Positions 18,808 to 42,552 of a DNA stretch of 52,280 nucleotides are shown piece by piece. The notes beneath the pieces were generated by a model. That model did not search any database and had not been told where the DNA came from. It saw nothing but the letters and a program-made list of their open reading frames with translations. Both the position numbers and the translations under genes were made by a program. The stretch is from Nitrospira sp. bin75 (GTDB taxonomy: Bacteria > Nitrospirota > Nitrospiria > Nitrospirales > UBA8639): contig MPMZ01000005.1 of assembly GCA_002238765.1 (NCBI GenBank), positions 32,001 to 84,280 of the forward strand, written 5' to 3'. Position 1 is the first letter of the stretch. Every line of letters starts with the position of its first letter.

Positions 18808-19563
18808 CTAGCCTTCACGCTGCATATCTTCGGCTTTATGCCCGAAGGCCTCGGCACTTGCCGTCCCTTCTTCTCCCAGCGGAATGTCCAACGGATTCGT
18901 ATGCGTTTTGCCGTCATGCACGTGGGATTGCAACCCCGTGAAACGGACACTCTCGCCGCTCTCCGGCAAGGCAATCCCCATTTCCTCACGAACGCGTTTG
19001 AACACCTGTGCGGTCTTTCGAATCTTGGCTGCATCGGAATCGCGAACCGTAAACATGGCATCTTCATGACCCTGTTCCGCGCAAATCGCCGACGTCCAGC
19101 AATTCGTCCCGGCTCGAATCATTTTCAGCGTCAGATTGGCGTAATGGCAATGCACGCCGATGAAAATGCATGCTTCAATTTTATTGCCCCAAATCGTGAG
19201 ATTGGGATGATTGGGGTTGATGACTTCCTCGGGCTCGATCTTCGGGTACTTGGGGCGGTAATCGGGCATCGGGATAATGAGCACTTCCGGGATTTGGGCT
19301 GCGAGTTCCAAGACGGCTCTGGCCTTCTCGGCCGCGTGGTCATTCCAATTCCATAACACCAGGGGACCGGGAAAAATCGTCGCATTTTTTCTCGTGAACA
19401 TGGCCCTGGCCATTTCTTCCATCGCCTTCTCTTCGGGAACTTCATGCCCGAACGTCAGTCCATGCTCCGGTAGCGGAGGGAGGACACCCAATTCGGCCGC
19501 GGACGGAGGATGAAACCCTGCCGGACCCGGTTCAACGATTCTTTCCAACTCAGTTGCTCCCAC
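18808..19563 (-). CDS. porE: 2-oxoacid:ferredoxin oxidoreductase, epsilon-type subunit
   Basis: 251 residues. This is the extra subunit found in five-subunit enzymes of reductive-TCA bacteria and often annotated as a CO dehydrogenase beta-subunit-like protein. Characteristic stretches are IFPGPLVLWNWNDHAAEKA, PMPDYRPKYPKIEPEEVINP, HPNLTIWGNKIEACIFIGVH and AICAEQGHEDAMFTVRD. No cofactor motif is evident. A shorter paralogue, with the same blocks, is encoded at 29353-29979. It lies between the ferredoxin-like and alpha genes. Confidence 0.82.
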   Translation of the reverse strand: MGATELERIVEPGPAGFHPPSAAELGVLPPLPEHGLTFGHEVPEEKAMEEMARAMFTRKNATIFPGPLVLWNWNDHAAEKARAVLELAAQIPEVLIIPMPDYRPKYPKIEPEEVINPNHPNLTIWGNKIEACIFIGVHCHYANLTLKMIRAGTNCWTSAICAEQGHEDAMFTVRDSDAAKIRKTAQVFKRVREEMGIALPESGESVRFTGLQSHVHDGKTHTNPLDIPLGEEGTASAEAFGHKAEDMQREG

Positions 19564-29356: not shown

Positions 29357-29979
29357 CCGACCCCACCTCCCGTTTCTGCGACCCCCGCTCGATGCAGGTC
29401 CCGCACCGTCTCGGCCAACCGGTCAATGGTGTGCGCCGTAATATCCCGGAACGACAACATGGCATCCTCATGGCCGGCCTGAGCACATAGAGCCATCGTA
29501 TAGCAAGAGGTCCCGCCTCGGACGATTTTCAGTGTGAGATTGGCTTGGTGACAATGAACTCCGACAAATAACCCAACATCGATCCGATTATGCCAGATGG
29601 TTAAGTTGGGATGATTGGGGTTAATCTCCACCTCCGGATTAATCTTGGGGTATTTGGGCCGGTAATCAGGCATAGGGATCAACATCGCCCGTTGGTGGGG
29701 CATCACGCAGGACTTAATCGTCTCATAGAGATGGCGTACCGCCACGGCTTTTTGAGCGGCAGCCTCATTCCATGCCCAGAGCACCAAGGGGCCTGGAAAG
29801 ATCGTCGGCACCTTGGCCAACAAAAACTGTCGCGCGGCCTCTTCAAAGGCCGCCTCCTCGGATACCCGATGCCCATAAAGAATGGCTTGCCCGGGGTCCG
29901 GAAGCCGTACTCCCATATTCGCGGCAGCCGGAGGAAGGAAATGCTCGGGGCCTGGACGTACTTCATAGGATGCTTTCAT
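29353..29979 (-). CDS. Orphan paralogue of the por epsilon subunit
   Basis: 208 residues. It shares the blocks of the epsilon subunit at 18808-19563: IFPGPLVLWAWNEAAAQKA, PMPDYRPKYPKINPEVEINP, HPNLTIWHNRIDVGLFVGVH and ALCAQAGHEDAMLSFRDI. The C-terminal extension of about 45 residues is missing. No alpha, beta, gamma or delta genes stand nearby; instead it directly follows a CobW-type gene (TGA then ATG with no gap) and overlaps the next small gene. It could be an alternative subunit or have a different role in this operon. Confidence 0.8.
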   Translation of the reverse strand: MKASYEVRPGPEHFLPPAAANMGVRLPDPGQAILYGHRVSEEAAFEEAARQFLLAKVPTIFPGPLVLWAWNEAAAQKAVAVRHLYETIKSCVMPHQRAMLIPMPDYRPKYPKINPEVEINPNHPNLTIWHNRIDVGLFVGVHCHQANLTLKIVRGGTSCYTMALCAQAGHEDAMLSFRDITAHTIDRLAETVRDLHRAGVAETGGGVG

Positions 29980-30350
29980 TCATTCACTCCGCTCTTGGTC
30001 ATTCATACGATTGCATGGCTCGGTGATGACATCAATGACATCTCCCACCTGGGCCATACCGGAACATTCCAGCACGACAACTTTAACTTGGCAGTTGACG
30101 ACTAACTCCTTGAGCCCCCAAGCAATCTCATCCCGCGCATCACAACAGACGCATCCGCCACTGATTTCCCGGATCTCCTCAACCAGGTTCGCCGCCAGAG
30201 GTCCGTCGACACTGACGGCACCCGCTTCGTTCATCAGGACGCCGGCTCGCACCCCACGCTGCTGCCAGTGCCTCAACAATTGAAGGAGCAACGTGTTTTG
30301 CCCGCACCCCGGAACCCGGACAGGAAGGTGACGGAGAGTTTTCGTATCAT
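29980..30350 (-). pseudogene. Short CobW/COG0523-type GTPase, one frameshift, lacks the C-terminal half
   Basis: From the ATG at 30350 the protein begins KLSVTFLSGFRGAGKT, a G3E GTPase P-loop. The frame breaks at about 30291-30300 (GGCAAAACACG); adding one C gives GKTTLLLQLLRHWQQRG and a 123-residue protein. It retains the metal-binding GGCVCC motif (residues 65-70) and the switch strand VVVLECSG, but not NKxD or the CobW C-terminal domain. Its start overlaps the upstream stop by four bases and its stop abuts the next ATG. The shortness is independent of the frameshift, since the next gene starts immediately. Confidence 0.75.
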
Positions 30351-31189: not shown

Positions 31190-31483
31190 TCAGTCAGCCT
31201 CGGCAGTCGCAATCGATGCGATGTTGGCCAACAGCCATGCGGAGGCAGCAAACAACTGCAACCAATCCCCACTGGAGCTGATCCCGTAAGTCAGCATGCT
31301 GGCAATCCAGCAAACGCTGGCAGCCGTTTGTCCGAGCCATTCGACGCGCAGGGCCCGTGCCAGTCGGTTTCGCCCCACAACAGACGCGATCCCCCTCCTC
31401 GCGGCCTCGCTCATCGCGGTCGGTCCACTCGAAGGCGCGGCGAGTACCCACCCGGCTGCCCCTTCGTCGTTCCCCGTCAACAT
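31190..31483 (-). CDS. Small two-helix membrane protein
   Basis: 97 residues from the ATG at 31483, with AGGAG five bases upstream. It overlaps the end of the flavoprotein gene by seven bases. Two hydrophobic segments are seen near the C-terminus (TAASVCWIASMLTYGIS and LQLFAASAWLLANIASIA), after a polar, basic N-terminal half. No family recognised. The next gene starts one base after its stop. Confidence 0.6.
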   Translation of the reverse strand: MLTGNDEGAAGWVLAAPSSGPTAMSEAARRGIASVVGRNRLARALRVEWLGQTAASVCWIASMLTYGISSSGDWLQLFAASAWLLANIASIATAEAD

Positions 31484-32604
31484 ACGCACTCCTGCCCACA
31501 ACAGGAGAGATCACTGAGATACATGCCCCAGTTGCGGTACGTTTCCAATCCTTCCGCCGGCAGCCCTAACGAGGTCGCTATGGCTTTGGCGACGACGGCG
31601 AAACGTTGTCGATACTTGAAGATAAAGCAAAAGACGTGATTGTCATGACGAACAGCGGGGCCGCAGAGAAATACTCCCGGCACAATGGTCGACTCATCGT
31701 GCTCGCTCAGCAACGGATAGCCATCGACGCGTCGCCCGAACAATTCTGCGACCAGCTTGTGACTGCCTTCAAATCCACCTGCCAAGAGTGGCGGCACACG
31801 AGTTTGAAACCGACGTCCGTCCCGCGCTGTGACTTCATACGTGGCGTCCACGCGGGTGACAGAGGCGATTGGCGTTTCCGGAAACAACTCCACTTGTTCC
31901 TCGAACCAATCTTCTCGCATCCGTTCCAGCGAATACGTTGAGAGGGCGATACTGGGATCGTAACTCTCGTCTTGCCACGGACAACTTTTGTCGAACAATC
32001 GTACCCGTTTGTCGCGATACGCCAAGTGGTAGGCCGCGTCGACACCACTCTCGTAGCCACCGACAATGATGAAGTCGTCTCCGCCAAGTTCTTCATAGCT
32101 GGCAATTGTCGCAGTGTGTCGACAGAGTTTGCTGCCAACAAACCCACTCAAACGTGGGTATTGGAACTCGCCAGCGGCCCAAATGACATGCTTGGCTCGA
32201 AAAATGTCATCGGCCGTATCGATGCGAAAATCGTCGCTAACTTTTGTTATCCGCGTCACGCTGGTCTTCTCGCGTATCGGCAACTCGAAAAACTTCGCGA
32301 CTCCCCGCAAGTGCAACGCATATTCCCTGCCCGTCGGATGCTCAACCTCTAAGCTGAACGCGGGCGAAACACCAATCGCGATCGAGTTCAAATCGAGCAT
32401 ACCCATCGAATTGGTCGGAAATGAGGGGGTGATGAATCGAGTCTCGGCCGGCCATGAGGCAAACGACGATCCGACCGTGTGTCGCTCAAGCACGATAAAG
32501 CTCTCAATACCGGCATGCTTTAGGGCTATCGCAACCCCCACACCCGCGGCACCACCACCGACGACGACGACATCGTAAGTATTAACGTTCGTTGCAGTCG
32601 TCAT
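31477..32604 (-). CDS. FAD/NAD(P)-dependent oxidoreductase with a cysteine-rich tail
   Basis: 375 residues from the ATG at 32604. Two Rossmann motifs are visible: VVVVGGGAAGVGVA (residues 13-26) for FAD and FIIVGGYESGVDAA near 190 for the nicotinamide cofactor. WAAGEFQYPRLSG resembles flavin monooxygenase and thioredoxin-reductase-like proteins, and GVFLCGPAVRHDNHVFCFI near 335 closes the FAD site. The last eight residues, CCGQECVC, hold four cysteines, possibly a metal or redox site. It is the first large gene of the 29-33 kb operon, preceded by a short peptide frame and the element at 32788-32847. Substrate unknown. Confidence 0.82.
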   Translation of the reverse strand: MTTATNVNTYDVVVVGGGAAGVGVAIALKHAGIESFIVLERHTVGSSFASWPAETRFITPSFPTNSMGMLDLNSIAIGVSPAFSLEVEHPTGREYALHLRGVAKFFELPIREKTSVTRITKVSDDFRIDTADDIFRAKHVIWAAGEFQYPRLSGFVGSKLCRHTATIASYEELGGDDFIIVGGYESGVDAAYHLAYRDKRVRLFDKSCPWQDESYDPSIALSTYSLERMREDWFEEQVELFPETPIASVTRVDATYEVTARDGRRFQTRVPPLLAGGFEGSHKLVAELFGRRVDGYPLLSEHDESTIVPGVFLCGPAVRHDNHVFCFIFKYRQRFAVVAKAIATSLGLPAEGLETYRNWGMYLSDLSCCGQECVC

Positions 32605-32620: not shown

Positions 32621-32698
32621 TCACTGCACCGCTGCAACAACCACACAGACAATCGCAACGGCGGTGACGCACATCACTCGAATCAACCGGGCCTGCAT
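32621..32698 (-). CDS. Possible 25-residue hydrophobic leader peptide
   Basis: An ATG at 32698 directly after AGGAGGG opens a 25-residue frame: a basic start (MQARLIRV) and then an almost wholly hydrophobic run with two cysteines, ending VVVAAVQ. It stops 16 bases before the flavoprotein start. It could be a small membrane peptide or an attenuator leader. The ribosome site is closer to the ATG than usual, so the call is tentative. Confidence 0.4.
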   Translation of the reverse strand: MQARLIRVMCVTAVAIVCVVVAAVQ

Positions 32699-32787: not shown

Positions 32788-32847
32788 TCGAATATTTTCC
32801 CAGTGCGACCGATCCGGCTTATCCCCGCCTCCGGAATGGGCGGTCCG
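32788..32847 (-). promoter_or_regulatory. 60-nt conserved upstream element, copy 1
   Basis: 54 of 60 bases are identical to 41697-41756, with no gaps and the same orientation relative to the genes. On the minus strand it contains GACCG and CGGTC arms flanking a conserved core (CATTCCGGAGGCGGGGATAA), so a stem-loop is possible. It precedes the flavoprotein/CobW operon (start codons at 32698 or 32604). Copy 2 precedes the COG0523 GTPase operon. It may be an operator, promoter or structured RNA leader. Confidence 0.65.
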
Positions 32848-32877: not shown

Positions 32878-33183
32878 CTACCAACTCGACTTTTTCACGC
32901 CGGGAATATCCCCCCGTAAGGCCAACAAACGAAAATCGATGCGGGACATGCCGAATCGTCTCAGGAATCCACGGGTCCGGCCTGAAATAAGACATCGGTT
33001 TCTCACTCGGCTTGGGCTGGCATTGCGGGGCAGCGCCTGCAGCCGCCGTTGCGCCTCCATCCGGTCTTCCAAAGAAGACCCGGGATTTCGGATAACTTCC
33101 TTTAAATTGGCTCGTTGGTGGGCGTGCCGCTTCACCACCTCTTGTCGTTTTTCATTCTTAATGATGCAACTTTTTTTGGCCAT
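32878..33183 (-). CDS. rpsN: 30S ribosomal protein S14, zinc-free form
   Basis: 101 residues, the length of the E. coli type. It starts [20 protein letters not shown] and ends with the conserved [20 protein letters not shown]. In the zinc-binding form the region before this has two CxxC pairs; here it reads [10 protein letters not shown] and MSRIDF, so the ligands are gone. Many bacteria keep such a form outside the ribosomal operons to replace the zinc form under zinc shortage. It stands alone here between the two metal-linked clusters. Confidence 0.93.
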
Positions 33184-33821
33184 AGGACCTTCCTTTCCTC
33201 AAGGTGTGATTTTTTCCCAATGTCACCCTTTTGGATTAACCATTGTCTTGGTTCATTCATCCACCAATTTCGACCAACCAATCGTTCTCTGAATACGCTA
33301 GCTGATTGGCAATCAAATACAGCTGGGCAGTGAGAGGAACGAGCTTATGAGTTGAAAATGATTTGAAACGCCAACTGATGGCTAGCATGCCAGCAATTGC
33401 TTCTGCTGCCTCGGCTTATACCAAGACACTTCGCTTTCATGAATAACTTTTCAGTGAACGTCAGAAATTATTAAATGAAACGTCTTTTTTCTGGAGATGA
33501 GTGTATGACGAAGAGGAAAGGCCGAACAAAGAAATGTGGGAGTGTGGGCGCTACCAAGGAAGCAGGTGATGACGGAGCGCGCGGGGTTGGCTCTTTGTTC
33601 GGTTACCGCTTACTCAAAAAGGCCTTACATAATCCCTATCCCAGGCTCAGGCCTACAGTATGACGTTATAATACCATGTCAGAAAGCCGGCTAGAGGATT
33701 CTCCTCTCAGATCAATCGAACCGCTGGAACCACTCGACGATTCGCGGCCGTTGTGGCTCGCCGCGTATAGGGGCACTCCCCTCTTCCCGTGCTCGCAGCA
33801 AGCGGTAGCGGGTGAAAAAAC
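33184..33821. other. 638-bp region between rpsN and merR
   Basis: No credible gene. Plus-strand frames such as 33475-33663 translate to basic, low-complexity peptides without a family match. The left part should carry the rpsN promoter (minus strand). The right end, up to the merR promoter at 33822, is unlike the coding sequence around it in composition. Confidence 0.45.
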
Positions 33822-33853
33822 TTGACTCTGTACTGAGGTACGGAGTGTATACT
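33822..33853 (+). promoter_or_regulatory. MerR-type promoter and operator
   Basis: TTGACT (33822-33827) and TATACT (33848-33853) are separated by 20 bases, longer than normal, as in MerR-activated promoters. The spacer contains a dyad at 33825-33846: ACTCTGTAC and GTACGGAGT around four bases, matching in eight of nine positions. This is the classic layout in which MerR untwists the spacer on metal binding. Confidence 0.88.
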
Positions 33854-35904: not shown

Positions 35905-37205
35905 TTATTCGTCTTTCGTTCTTTGAAACACCGTCACCCCGCCGACCAAGGTCCGGACAACCGCACCACGAAGTCGCCACCCAGCGAACGGGCTGTTCCG
36001 CCCCTTCGACCGAAACCGCTCCGGATCAACCGTCCATTCCATCCTTGGATCGATCAACACCACATCAGCCTGCGCACCGGCGGCCAACGTCCCGCACGAT
36101 AGGCCAAGCAAACGGGCCGGGGCTGACGTCAGTTTTTCTATCATGGATTCCAGGGACAACAGGCCCCTTTCTACCAGCCGAAGAGAAAGCCCTAAGGCCG
36201 TTTCAAGCCCGACTATTCCAAATGGAGCCTTGGACAACCCCCACTGCTTCTCATAGGCAGCATGCGGGGCATGATCGGTGGCTATGGCATCAATGGTGCC
36301 ATCCTGCAACCCGTCGCGGACCGCCTGGACATCCGCATTTCGACGGAGGGGAGGATTCATTTTCGCCAATGCGCCCTGCTCCCGCACAGTCTCTTCGGTC
36401 AACATGAAATGATGGGGGCAAGCTTCCGCGGTCACCCGAACTCCGGCGGCTTTGGCCGTCCTGACGGCCTCCACGGCATTCGCCGTACTGATATGCGCGA
36501 TATGTAGATGACATTCCGTTGCCTTGGACAACGCGATATCCCGTTCCACCATCCTGGATTCCGCTTCAGAAGGGATGCCTCGGACTCCCAAGAGACGGGA
36601 AAGGGCCCCTCGGCCATACATCCGCACCCGGCCAATGACAGATCTTCGCAATGATCGATCACCGGCAGATCCAAGGCCCGAGCCTCTAACATCGCCTGTC
36701 GCATGACGGCATGCTCCATCACGGGACGGCCATCATCCGAGACAGCCACACATCCGGCCCCACGCAAGCCCCGAAGGTCTGCCGGCTCTTTCCCTTGTAA
36801 TCCCTTGGTGATGGCCCCGATTGGATGTACGCGAACCAGCCCGGTAGCATGCACCCGGTCATGAATGGTCTCGGTCACAGCAGGGGAATCATTGACGGGA
36901 TTGGTATTGGGCATGCAACAGACGGTCGTCAACCCTCCGGCAGCGGCTGCAGCAGTTCCAGTCTCGATGGTTTCTTTGTACTCATAACCCGGTTCCCGTA
37001 GATGGACGTGCAGATCGACCAATCCCGGTGCCACGATCAACCCGTCCGCCTTGATAAGGTCGGCATGTGAGGGAAGAGCCGTCTGTGGAGGCGTCACCTC
37101 GGCGATACGCCCTTGGCTGATCCAGACATCCCCCACACCATGCCACCGTCCAGGGTCGATGACCCAACCGCCTGAGATGATGCATAAGTCGGCAGGATAG
37201 TTCAG
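35905..37205 (-). pseudogene. pyrC: Dihydroorotase (class I type), one frameshift
   Basis: The N-terminal half carries the metal motif [20 protein letters not shown], the substrate loop [13 protein letters not shown] and HCEDLSLAG. The C-terminal half (frame of 35905-36651) has [27 protein letters not shown] and the catalytic ATDHAPH. The frame changes at about 36603-36610 within a GGGGCCC run; one extra G restores [19 protein letters not shown]. The repaired enzyme would be complete, about 433 residues, converting carbamoyl-aspartate to dihydroorotate. The start is uncertain; a CTG at 37205 with AGGGGAA before it fits best. It follows the ZIP gene after 8 bases. Confidence 0.85.
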
Positions 37206-37213
37206 GGATTCCC

Positions 37214-38008
37214 CTAGTGCGGGAGCATGGTCAGCATGCCGATGGTCACCATTCCGGTCAGCATCATGGCAAACGGCCAAGCCCCACTGGCCGCCCCGTG
37301 CCGGCCATGTAAGTCGGGAACCAGATCGGCAAGACCGATATACAAAAAACTGGCGGCGGCCAACATCAAGGCATAGGGCACGATCGGCTCCGCATAGGCC
37401 AAGCCCCCAAACGCCAACACCACCCCTGCGAGGATCGCCATACCTGACAGGGTATTGGCCCAAAACGCCTCCCACTGGGAAAATCCGCTCGACAGCAGAA
37501 TGGTGAAGTCACTCAACTCCTGCGGAATTTCATGACCCAGAACCGCCAACGTCGTGACCAGACCCAGAGCAGGGGACGCGACACAGGCCACGCCGATGGC
37601 AATACCGTCGGCAAAGTTATGAACGGCATCGCCGATCAGGATCAATGCCCCGGCTTCTCGGCGAACGGTCGAGCCCTTCGCATGCCCGCGAGGCTTGAGT
37701 TCAGCAGCCTCCCCGTGCGCATGGCGCCAGATCACCATCCATTCCAGAATAAAGAACAGGACCAACCCCGCCAACAAAGCGATGCCCGCCTCATTAATCG
37801 AAATGGCTTCGAGTGCCTCGGGAAGCAGCCCGATGGTCGCAGTCGCCAGCATCGTGCCGGTCGCAAACCCCAGCAGATTCGGCATCATCCATTGCCGCCA
37901 CCCATCCGGTATAAACAGCACCAGACCTGCAGGTAATAAGGCACCCAGGCTGCCCAGCAACCCCATCAAGATGACAAACATCCATGTGGATTCTTGGGGC
38001 AGGCTCAC
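37214..38008 (-). CDS. ZIP-family divalent metal transporter
   Basis: 264 residues, eight predicted membrane segments. The metal path is in [18 protein letters not shown] (helix 4) and [20 protein letters not shown] (helix 5), the ZIP signatures. A His-containing cytoplasmic loop ([20 protein letters not shown]) lies between helices 3 and 4. It imports zinc or related metals. It sits within the operon that begins with the COG0523 GTPase and is followed directly by pyrC. Confidence 0.92.
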
Positions 38009-41696: not shown

Positions 41697-41756
41697 TCGA
41701 ACATCTTCCCAGCGCGACCGAGCCCGCTTATCCCCGCCTCCGGAATGGTCGGTCCG
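41697..41756 (-). promoter_or_regulatory. 60-nt conserved upstream element, copy 2
   Basis: 54 of 60 bases match 32788-32847. The six differences fall outside the CATTCCGGAGGCGGGGATAA core and outside the GACCG/CGGTC arms. It ends 18 bases before the GTPase start codon, so in RNA it would lie in the leader; in DNA it would overlap the promoter. Confidence 0.65.
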
Positions 41757-42552
41757 TGCGATTCCTGAAACTTTTACCCCGGGACTTCAACGGGTAATGG
41801 TGAGTCTTACCCGGACGGCGAAGCGAATATGAATCGCTTCGAAACTGAAGCAACCTGGTGGGTTAAACTTAGCCGAATACACGAAAACGGCAACGAGATT
41901 TTCATGAATGGTCCAATTCTTCCCTCGATCCTCCCCAATACGGTTATGAAGCAGTCTATTCTGTTTTTTCTTCTCCCGGCTGCAAACAGGGAAACCTGTG
42001 CGCCCAAGAGAATGAGTGAGACCGGAGAAGAGATCTATTGCAGGTATGCCAGCGATCCTTGGCGGGCACGAACTTGGTAAACGAGGACGTCTTGATGCCC
42101 ATTTGTTCGGGTGGGAGTATTTCTGGTTACTGATGAGCACTCGTACGCTTCCCCGTCACGGAGACAGTTCTCAAGTCGAGTGTCTGGTCGAGCAGGTTCT
42201 AAGTGCGGACATCCGCGAGTTGCTGGCGGATCAAGGGGGATTTGCCCGTCCGTCGAGGGCCGAACAGGAAACAGGACTTTTGTTCTACAAGGACAAGGAT
42301 TGTCCGCCACTGGCGAGAATGGCGCTGGCCAACGAAATCCGCTTTGTATGCCTTGCCCTCATACTCGCGTATGTGATCATCTTTTCCATTCCGGCAGGCT
42401 GACACAGACTGCATGGATTTGATCCGTGTATTCCTTTCACCTGCGATAATCCGAGATCGAGTCGCCGTTGTGGCATCATGCTTGCGGAATCCGTTTTTCA
42501 TTGTTATATTTTATGCAATGGATCTATAAAACCAATGGAAGGAGGTTGGGCC
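41757..42552. other. Region between the GTPase operon and vapBC
   Basis: About 800 bp without an intact gene. Its middle holds the decayed ATPase listed at 42105-42300. The remainder has open frames on both strands, but their translations do not resemble known proteins. The right end contains the promoter and ribosome site of vapB. Confidence 0.5.
42105..42300 (-). pseudogene. Remnant of an AAA/DUF4143 ATPase
   Basis: The minus strand reads LVEQKSCFLFGPRRTGKSPL followed by IRQQLADVRT, then a TAG where a tyrosine is usual, then NLLDQTLDL. This is the N-terminal P-loop region of the same ATPase family as the gene at 5033-6201. Everything after it is gone. It is inactive and marks an old insertion or deletion site. 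Confidence 0.7.

Follow-up and report, generated by a model that had tools for sequence, protein, structure and literature searches.

A 60-nt noncoding element present in two copies in the genome of Nitrospira sp. bin75 (G000) is probably a fragment of the cobW1 leader of which a single duplication placed a copy in the spacer behind rpsN2 during rearrangement of a zinc-limitation gene island, a reading to which we assign a probability of roughly 0.55. In the direction of copying that we infer, the source would be the leader of the zinc-type COG0523 GTPase gene cobW1, and the copying may have taken place at or near the base of the cobW1-bearing lineage. The stretch of DNA analysed here, 52,280 nt of contig MPMZ01000005.1, is referred to as the window.

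Two copies of the element in a zinc-limitation gene island

A preliminary description of the window had reported an ungapped, same-orientation pair of sequences without further repeats, and both points were confirmed: the two copies are identical at 54 of 60 positions (E = 4e-16, BLAST within the window), both are directed towards genes of the minus strand, and the similarity ends at both edges (Table 1). The search was extended to the whole 3.04-Mb genome and returned these two copies and no third, so the pair is not a chance match. The location claimed for the copies, upstream of both CobW operons, applies to copy 2, which directly precedes the intact cobW1, but not to copy 1 in this window. 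Copy 1 follows rpsN2 and is itself followed by a truncated small ORF and the flavoprotein gene, and the only CobW sequence behind it in this genome is a 103-codon fragment. In the related genome G005, copy 1 does precede an S18 paralog and two intact COG0523 genes, within an intact row of exp104, the S18 paralog, the two COG0523 genes and the flavoprotein gene.

Table 1. Coordinates of the element, its neighboring features and the leader RNA of sister family f3 (window positions unless a locus is named)
Feature	Position	Strand	Remark
Copy 1 of the 60-nt element	32788-32847	-	Begins 30 nt after the stop codon of rpsN2
Copy 2 of the 60-nt element	41697-41756	-	17 nt between its end and the ATG of cobW1
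cobW1, COG0523 GTPase, 323 aa	40708-41679	-	Behind copy 2; Pfam cobW and CobW_C
rpsN2, S14 paralog without CXXC pairs (zinc-ribbon-free)	32878-33183	-	In front of copy 1
Remnant (25 codons) of the small exported-protein gene exp104	32621-32698	-	102 aa in G005
Flavoprotein gene	31477-32604	-	Behind copy 1; Pfam Pyr_redox_3
COG0523 fragment	29980-30291	-	
ZIP transporter gene	37214-38008	-	Same island
Best-conserved block upstream of cobW1	41865-41912	-	Kept in 9/9 cobW1-bearing genomes
f3 leader RNA	L079:1320-1443	+	
f3 leader RNA	L088:1310-1432	+	16 further f3 loci

The surroundings of the copies combine COG0523 GTPases, zinc-free paralogs and a metal transporter, which is the gene content of a Zur-type zinc-limitation island. 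Their identification as a zinc-limitation gene island is well supported on this basis, and the metal context proposed in the preliminary description is borne out. It has been reported that Zur sites have COG0523 genes and zinc-independent paralogs, including PyrC paralogs, downstream (PMC2770081), and that the S14 variant RpsNB of Bacillus subtilis is derepressed late in zinc deprivation (PMC5007448). The island also holds genes for a WD40 protein, a DUF3386 protein, a MoCF_biosynth (MoaB-like) protein, a pyrC paralog, MerR and a metallothionein-like protein, the last named from its cysteine pattern, without a Pfam match.

Several other features of the window were recorded along the way. The pyrC paralog (pyrC2, 35905-37475, minus strand) is split by a frameshift here and is in one piece in G005, G002, G012 and G009. 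The region upstream of the MerR gene (33645-33844, plus strand; gene at 33845) ends in a genus-conserved dyad, CTTGACTCnGTACnnnGGTACGGA, which by eye resembles a MerR-type operator. A 237-nt stretch at 19039-19275 is 70% alike to 29443-29679, the second lying inside a CO_dh-family gene, and the two are probably paralogs.

Distribution of the element among relatives

Orthologs of cobW1 (94-100%) are present in 9 of the 14 genomes of the genus, and the comparison is limited to these nine, many of which are fragmented assemblies. Copy 2 was found in six of the nine cobW1 leaders and copy 1 at two rpsN2 loci (this genome and G005), giving eight full copies in the genus, together with one truncated copy-1 remnant in G004 that runs into the tail of exp104. 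Copy 2 occurs without copy 1 in G012, G002 and G009. In the remaining three leaders (G003, G008, and G011), the left part of the element and about 110 nt of the preceding leader are missing, and a diverged right half is kept. At the rpsN2 locus, G002 and G003 have rpsN2 almost directly before rpsR2, with neither element nor exp104; the same junction in G011 also lacks both and holds about 200 nt, which in part consist of a repeat common to G009 and G003. A repeat of about 90 bp, perhaps an insertion-sequence end, is found at points of rearrangement of the zinc island in G011 and G009 and at contig ends of G003 (L054:4778-4869, L060:8000-8091, L057:13538-13605, and L056:6734-6785).

Full-length matches are restricted to this genus in a search of 236 genomes of the order with a sequence model of the element (R1); outside the genus this search gave no full-length match, and weak partial scores (E = 0.01-0.1) were taken as chance. 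An exact scan of GTDB contigs for the core pattern returned four Nitrospira/Nitrospirales MAG records, apparently G012, G004, G002 and G005. Viral contigs, plasmids and phages gave no match to the element.

Conservation of the element relative to its leader

Conservation of the element does not exceed that of the surrounding leader. Among six cobW1 orthologs, mean pairwise identity is 89.8% in the element versus 90.3% in the leader between the element and the upstream block, compared with 95.4% in that block itself and 82.0% at fourfold-degenerate sites of cobW1. Variable columns amount to 15 of 60 in the element versus 6 of 48 in the upstream block, a difference that is not significant (p = 0.14). 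The block may be a promoter or an operator region. As a point against a mere leader fragment, copy 1 has changed slightly less than its flanks between this genome and G005 (58/60 versus 106/120 identical positions). The divergence between the two copies within this genome (10%) equals the leader divergence between the two cobW1 clades, and therefore an identity of 90% needs no selection beyond that on an ordinary leader.

The preliminary description had also stressed that the six changes between the copies avoid a 20-base core (CATTCCGGAGGCGGGGATAA) and two arms, GACCG and CGGTC. This is correct for the pair, but the core is not protected over the eight copies, in which 6 of its 20 columns are variable versus 10 of 40 elsewhere (Fisher p = 0.76); its apparent protection is small-sample luck. 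Antisense coding was considered because four of the six changes share a single codon position in a plus-strand frame; it was rejected because, by reading the alignment, the eight-copy set adds non-synonymous changes in that frame.

A probable copied leader fragment or a mobile unit

We take the 3' half of the element (positions 26-60) to be native to the cobW1 leader, since a recognisable form of it stands beside the ribosome-binding site in all cobW1 leaders of the genus; even the G003 leader, which lacks the left part of the element, still matches these positions. Copy 1 and exp104 together form an insert at the rpsN2 locus. G002, G003 and G011 do not have this insert between rpsN2 and rpsR2, and in G004 it is reduced to a deleted remnant. 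rpsN2 and rpsR2 are adjacent in sister family f3 too. Both copies are probably transcribed, copy 2 at the end of the cobW1 leader and copy 1 between genes of the rpsN2 operon; control of these operons more likely lies in promoters further upstream than in the element.

The two copies are direct repeats that bracket the cobW1...rpsN2 block of about 8.9 kb in both this genome and G005, which raises the question of whether they mark the ends of a mobilisable unit integrated via a circular or tandem intermediate. When the outer sides of both copies are joined (the flank towards rpsN2 from copy 1, that towards cobW1 from copy 2), the resulting rpsN2-cobW1 spacer is 107 nt long, and this virtual joint reproduces the gene order and spacer length of G046, in which rpsN2 really precedes cobW1 with a spacer that is also 107 nt and also begins with AGGGC. 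This agreement in length also speaks for the copied leader fragment. However, a shuffle test found no significant similarity between the G046 spacer and the element despite the equal length, no integrase is present among the identified genes of the block, an empty site, meaning a full element in a genome that lacks cobW1, occurs in none of the 14 genomes of the genus, and three genomes carry copy 2 only. We regard such a recombination site as improbable, and an origin of the element by the splitting of an ancestral spacer is a guess.

A small transposable repeat of the MITE type would account for an identity confined to exactly 60 nt with sharp edges. Against it, there are at most two copies per genome, which occupy the same two places across genomes, the ends of the element carry no terminal inverted repeats, and the search of plasmids, phages and viral contigs was negative; we consider this explanation extremely improbable. 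Scattered copies or transposon ends had been named in the preliminary description as what would contradict a regulatory reading. The direct repeats around the block go some way in that direction, yet neither a transposase nor terminal inverted repeats nor an empty site was found.

A covarying leader RNA in the sister family

Beyond the genus, cobW1 orthologs (74-87%) are present in G046, which belongs to the same family, and in sister family f3. The f3 operon runs in the order Fur-family gene, exp104-like gene, spacer, cobW1, WD40 gene and further genes (the Fur-family gene is at L119:8377-8799, minus strand, and at other f3 loci). In the spacer between the exp104-like gene and cobW1 we found a structure of about 124 nt with a long outer helix, inner hairpins and a conserved CTCAAGGGGTTGG segment. 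Changes on both sides were observed in 15 of its 45 pairs, and its covariation score was reached by none of 500 shuffles; 94.8% of cells are paired versus about 50% with partners slid, a comparison that favours the structure because it was derived from the same alignment. Rfam 15 contains no match. A covariance model placed the RNA once per genome in 22 genomes from five genera of f3, and two of these places match on the opposite strand too, as a dyad would; in 396 genomes drawn from the phylum, no match was detected outside f3. We regard this strongly covarying, previously undescribed structure as a candidate leader RNA in a COG0523 operon of the zinc type.

The existence of a covarying RNA at the homologous place, together with the location of the element in the probable 5' leader of cobW1, would suit the suggestion that the 60-nt element is itself a structured, riboswitch-like leader RNA sensing a metal or a cofactor. 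This part of the preliminary description was not sustained. On either strand, both copies fold less stably than the mean of their shuffles (z of the minimum free energy, +1.7 and +1.5), and compensatory changes occur in none of the 17 predicted pairs of a consensus fold of the eight copies, in which the arm helix is invariant and hence uninformative either way. Rfam searches of the whole window and of the copy-1 region gave no match at the element, and the covariance model of the f3 RNA (R2) has no match in the window and matches neither copy even when unfiltered, with best nearby scores of at most 5 bits. A role of the element as a structured leader RNA is very improbable, and the element is not homologous to the f3 leader RNA.

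The element as a possible shared operator

Another explanation is that the element is a lineage-specific operator or promoter part, in which the inverted arms GACCG-N29-CGGTC bind a regulator and the rpsN2/COG0523 and cobW1 operons answer zinc together. Both copies are located at zinc-limitation genes in the same orientation, and the genome carries two Fur-family genes (C44:22333-22689 and C113:387-761). None of the eight copies shows a change in the arms (hypergeometric p = 0.033, a value somewhat flattered by the fact that the arms were originally chosen from two of the same eight copies), and the three cobW1 leaders that lack the left arm have also dropped a G from the right one, as arms acting jointly would lead one to expect. 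Nevertheless, the flanks are conserved to the same degree as the element, three of the nine cobW1 leaders and three rpsN2-rpsR2 junctions do without it, and copy 1 is placed inside a gene row behind rpsN2. Consensus scans for promoters and terminators gave nothing exceeding shuffles, with no sigma-70-like promoter among the results.

Comparison with the Fur-family gene of f3 also argues against an operator. The promoter of that gene has a conserved palindrome, TAAATGCAAnTnAnTTGCAA, behind a TTGACA-like -35 sequence, and the element lacks this palindrome. Near either copy there is no site within two mismatches of the box before this gene (TGCAAnnnnnTTGCA); in the window, a single two-mismatch site lies upstream of rpsN2 (33353) and none is found at cobW1. 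Of the shared operator first proposed, what stands is the invariance of the arms; the lack of extra conservation, the dispensability of the element and the missing Fur-type box leave it a tentative and rather doubtful reading.

A more elaborate version would be that the genus swapped the structured cobW1 leader RNA of the sister family for a new dyad, GACCG-N29-CGGTC, and that a later copy of this dyad at a second zinc-starvation operon brought both under common regulation. We consider this scenario unlikely. If true, the replacement and copying of the dyad would be a fresh case of cis-regulatory turnover and capture, and if the dyad works at all, a young shared control site would have been caught early.

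Implications and comparison with known systems

Under the preferred reading of a copied cobW1 leader fragment, the element illustrates how leader DNA can be copied within a zinc-limitation island that rearranges fast, and it warns that two noncoding stretches may be 90% identical without selection being the reason. The leader RNA of f3 may matter more than the element, as RNA-level control of zinc-type COG0523 genes becomes directly testable. The two occupy homologous places before orthologous cobW1 genes but match in neither sequence nor structure.

A leader before a CobW-type GTPase gene recalls the B12 riboswitch upstream of true cobW genes (PMC2770081). In contrast to that system, cobW1 is found in a zinc-type context and not with cobalamin synthesis, and the element shows neither an Rfam match nor RNA structure. 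The closer likeness is to Zur-regulated zinc-limitation operons (PMC2770081, PMC5007448). The gene set is alike, comprising COG0523 genes, a zinc-ribbon-free S14 gene, a pyrC paralog and a metal importer, and in the sister family a Fur-family gene with a palindromic box at its promoter stands first in the operon. The 60-nt element has no such box.
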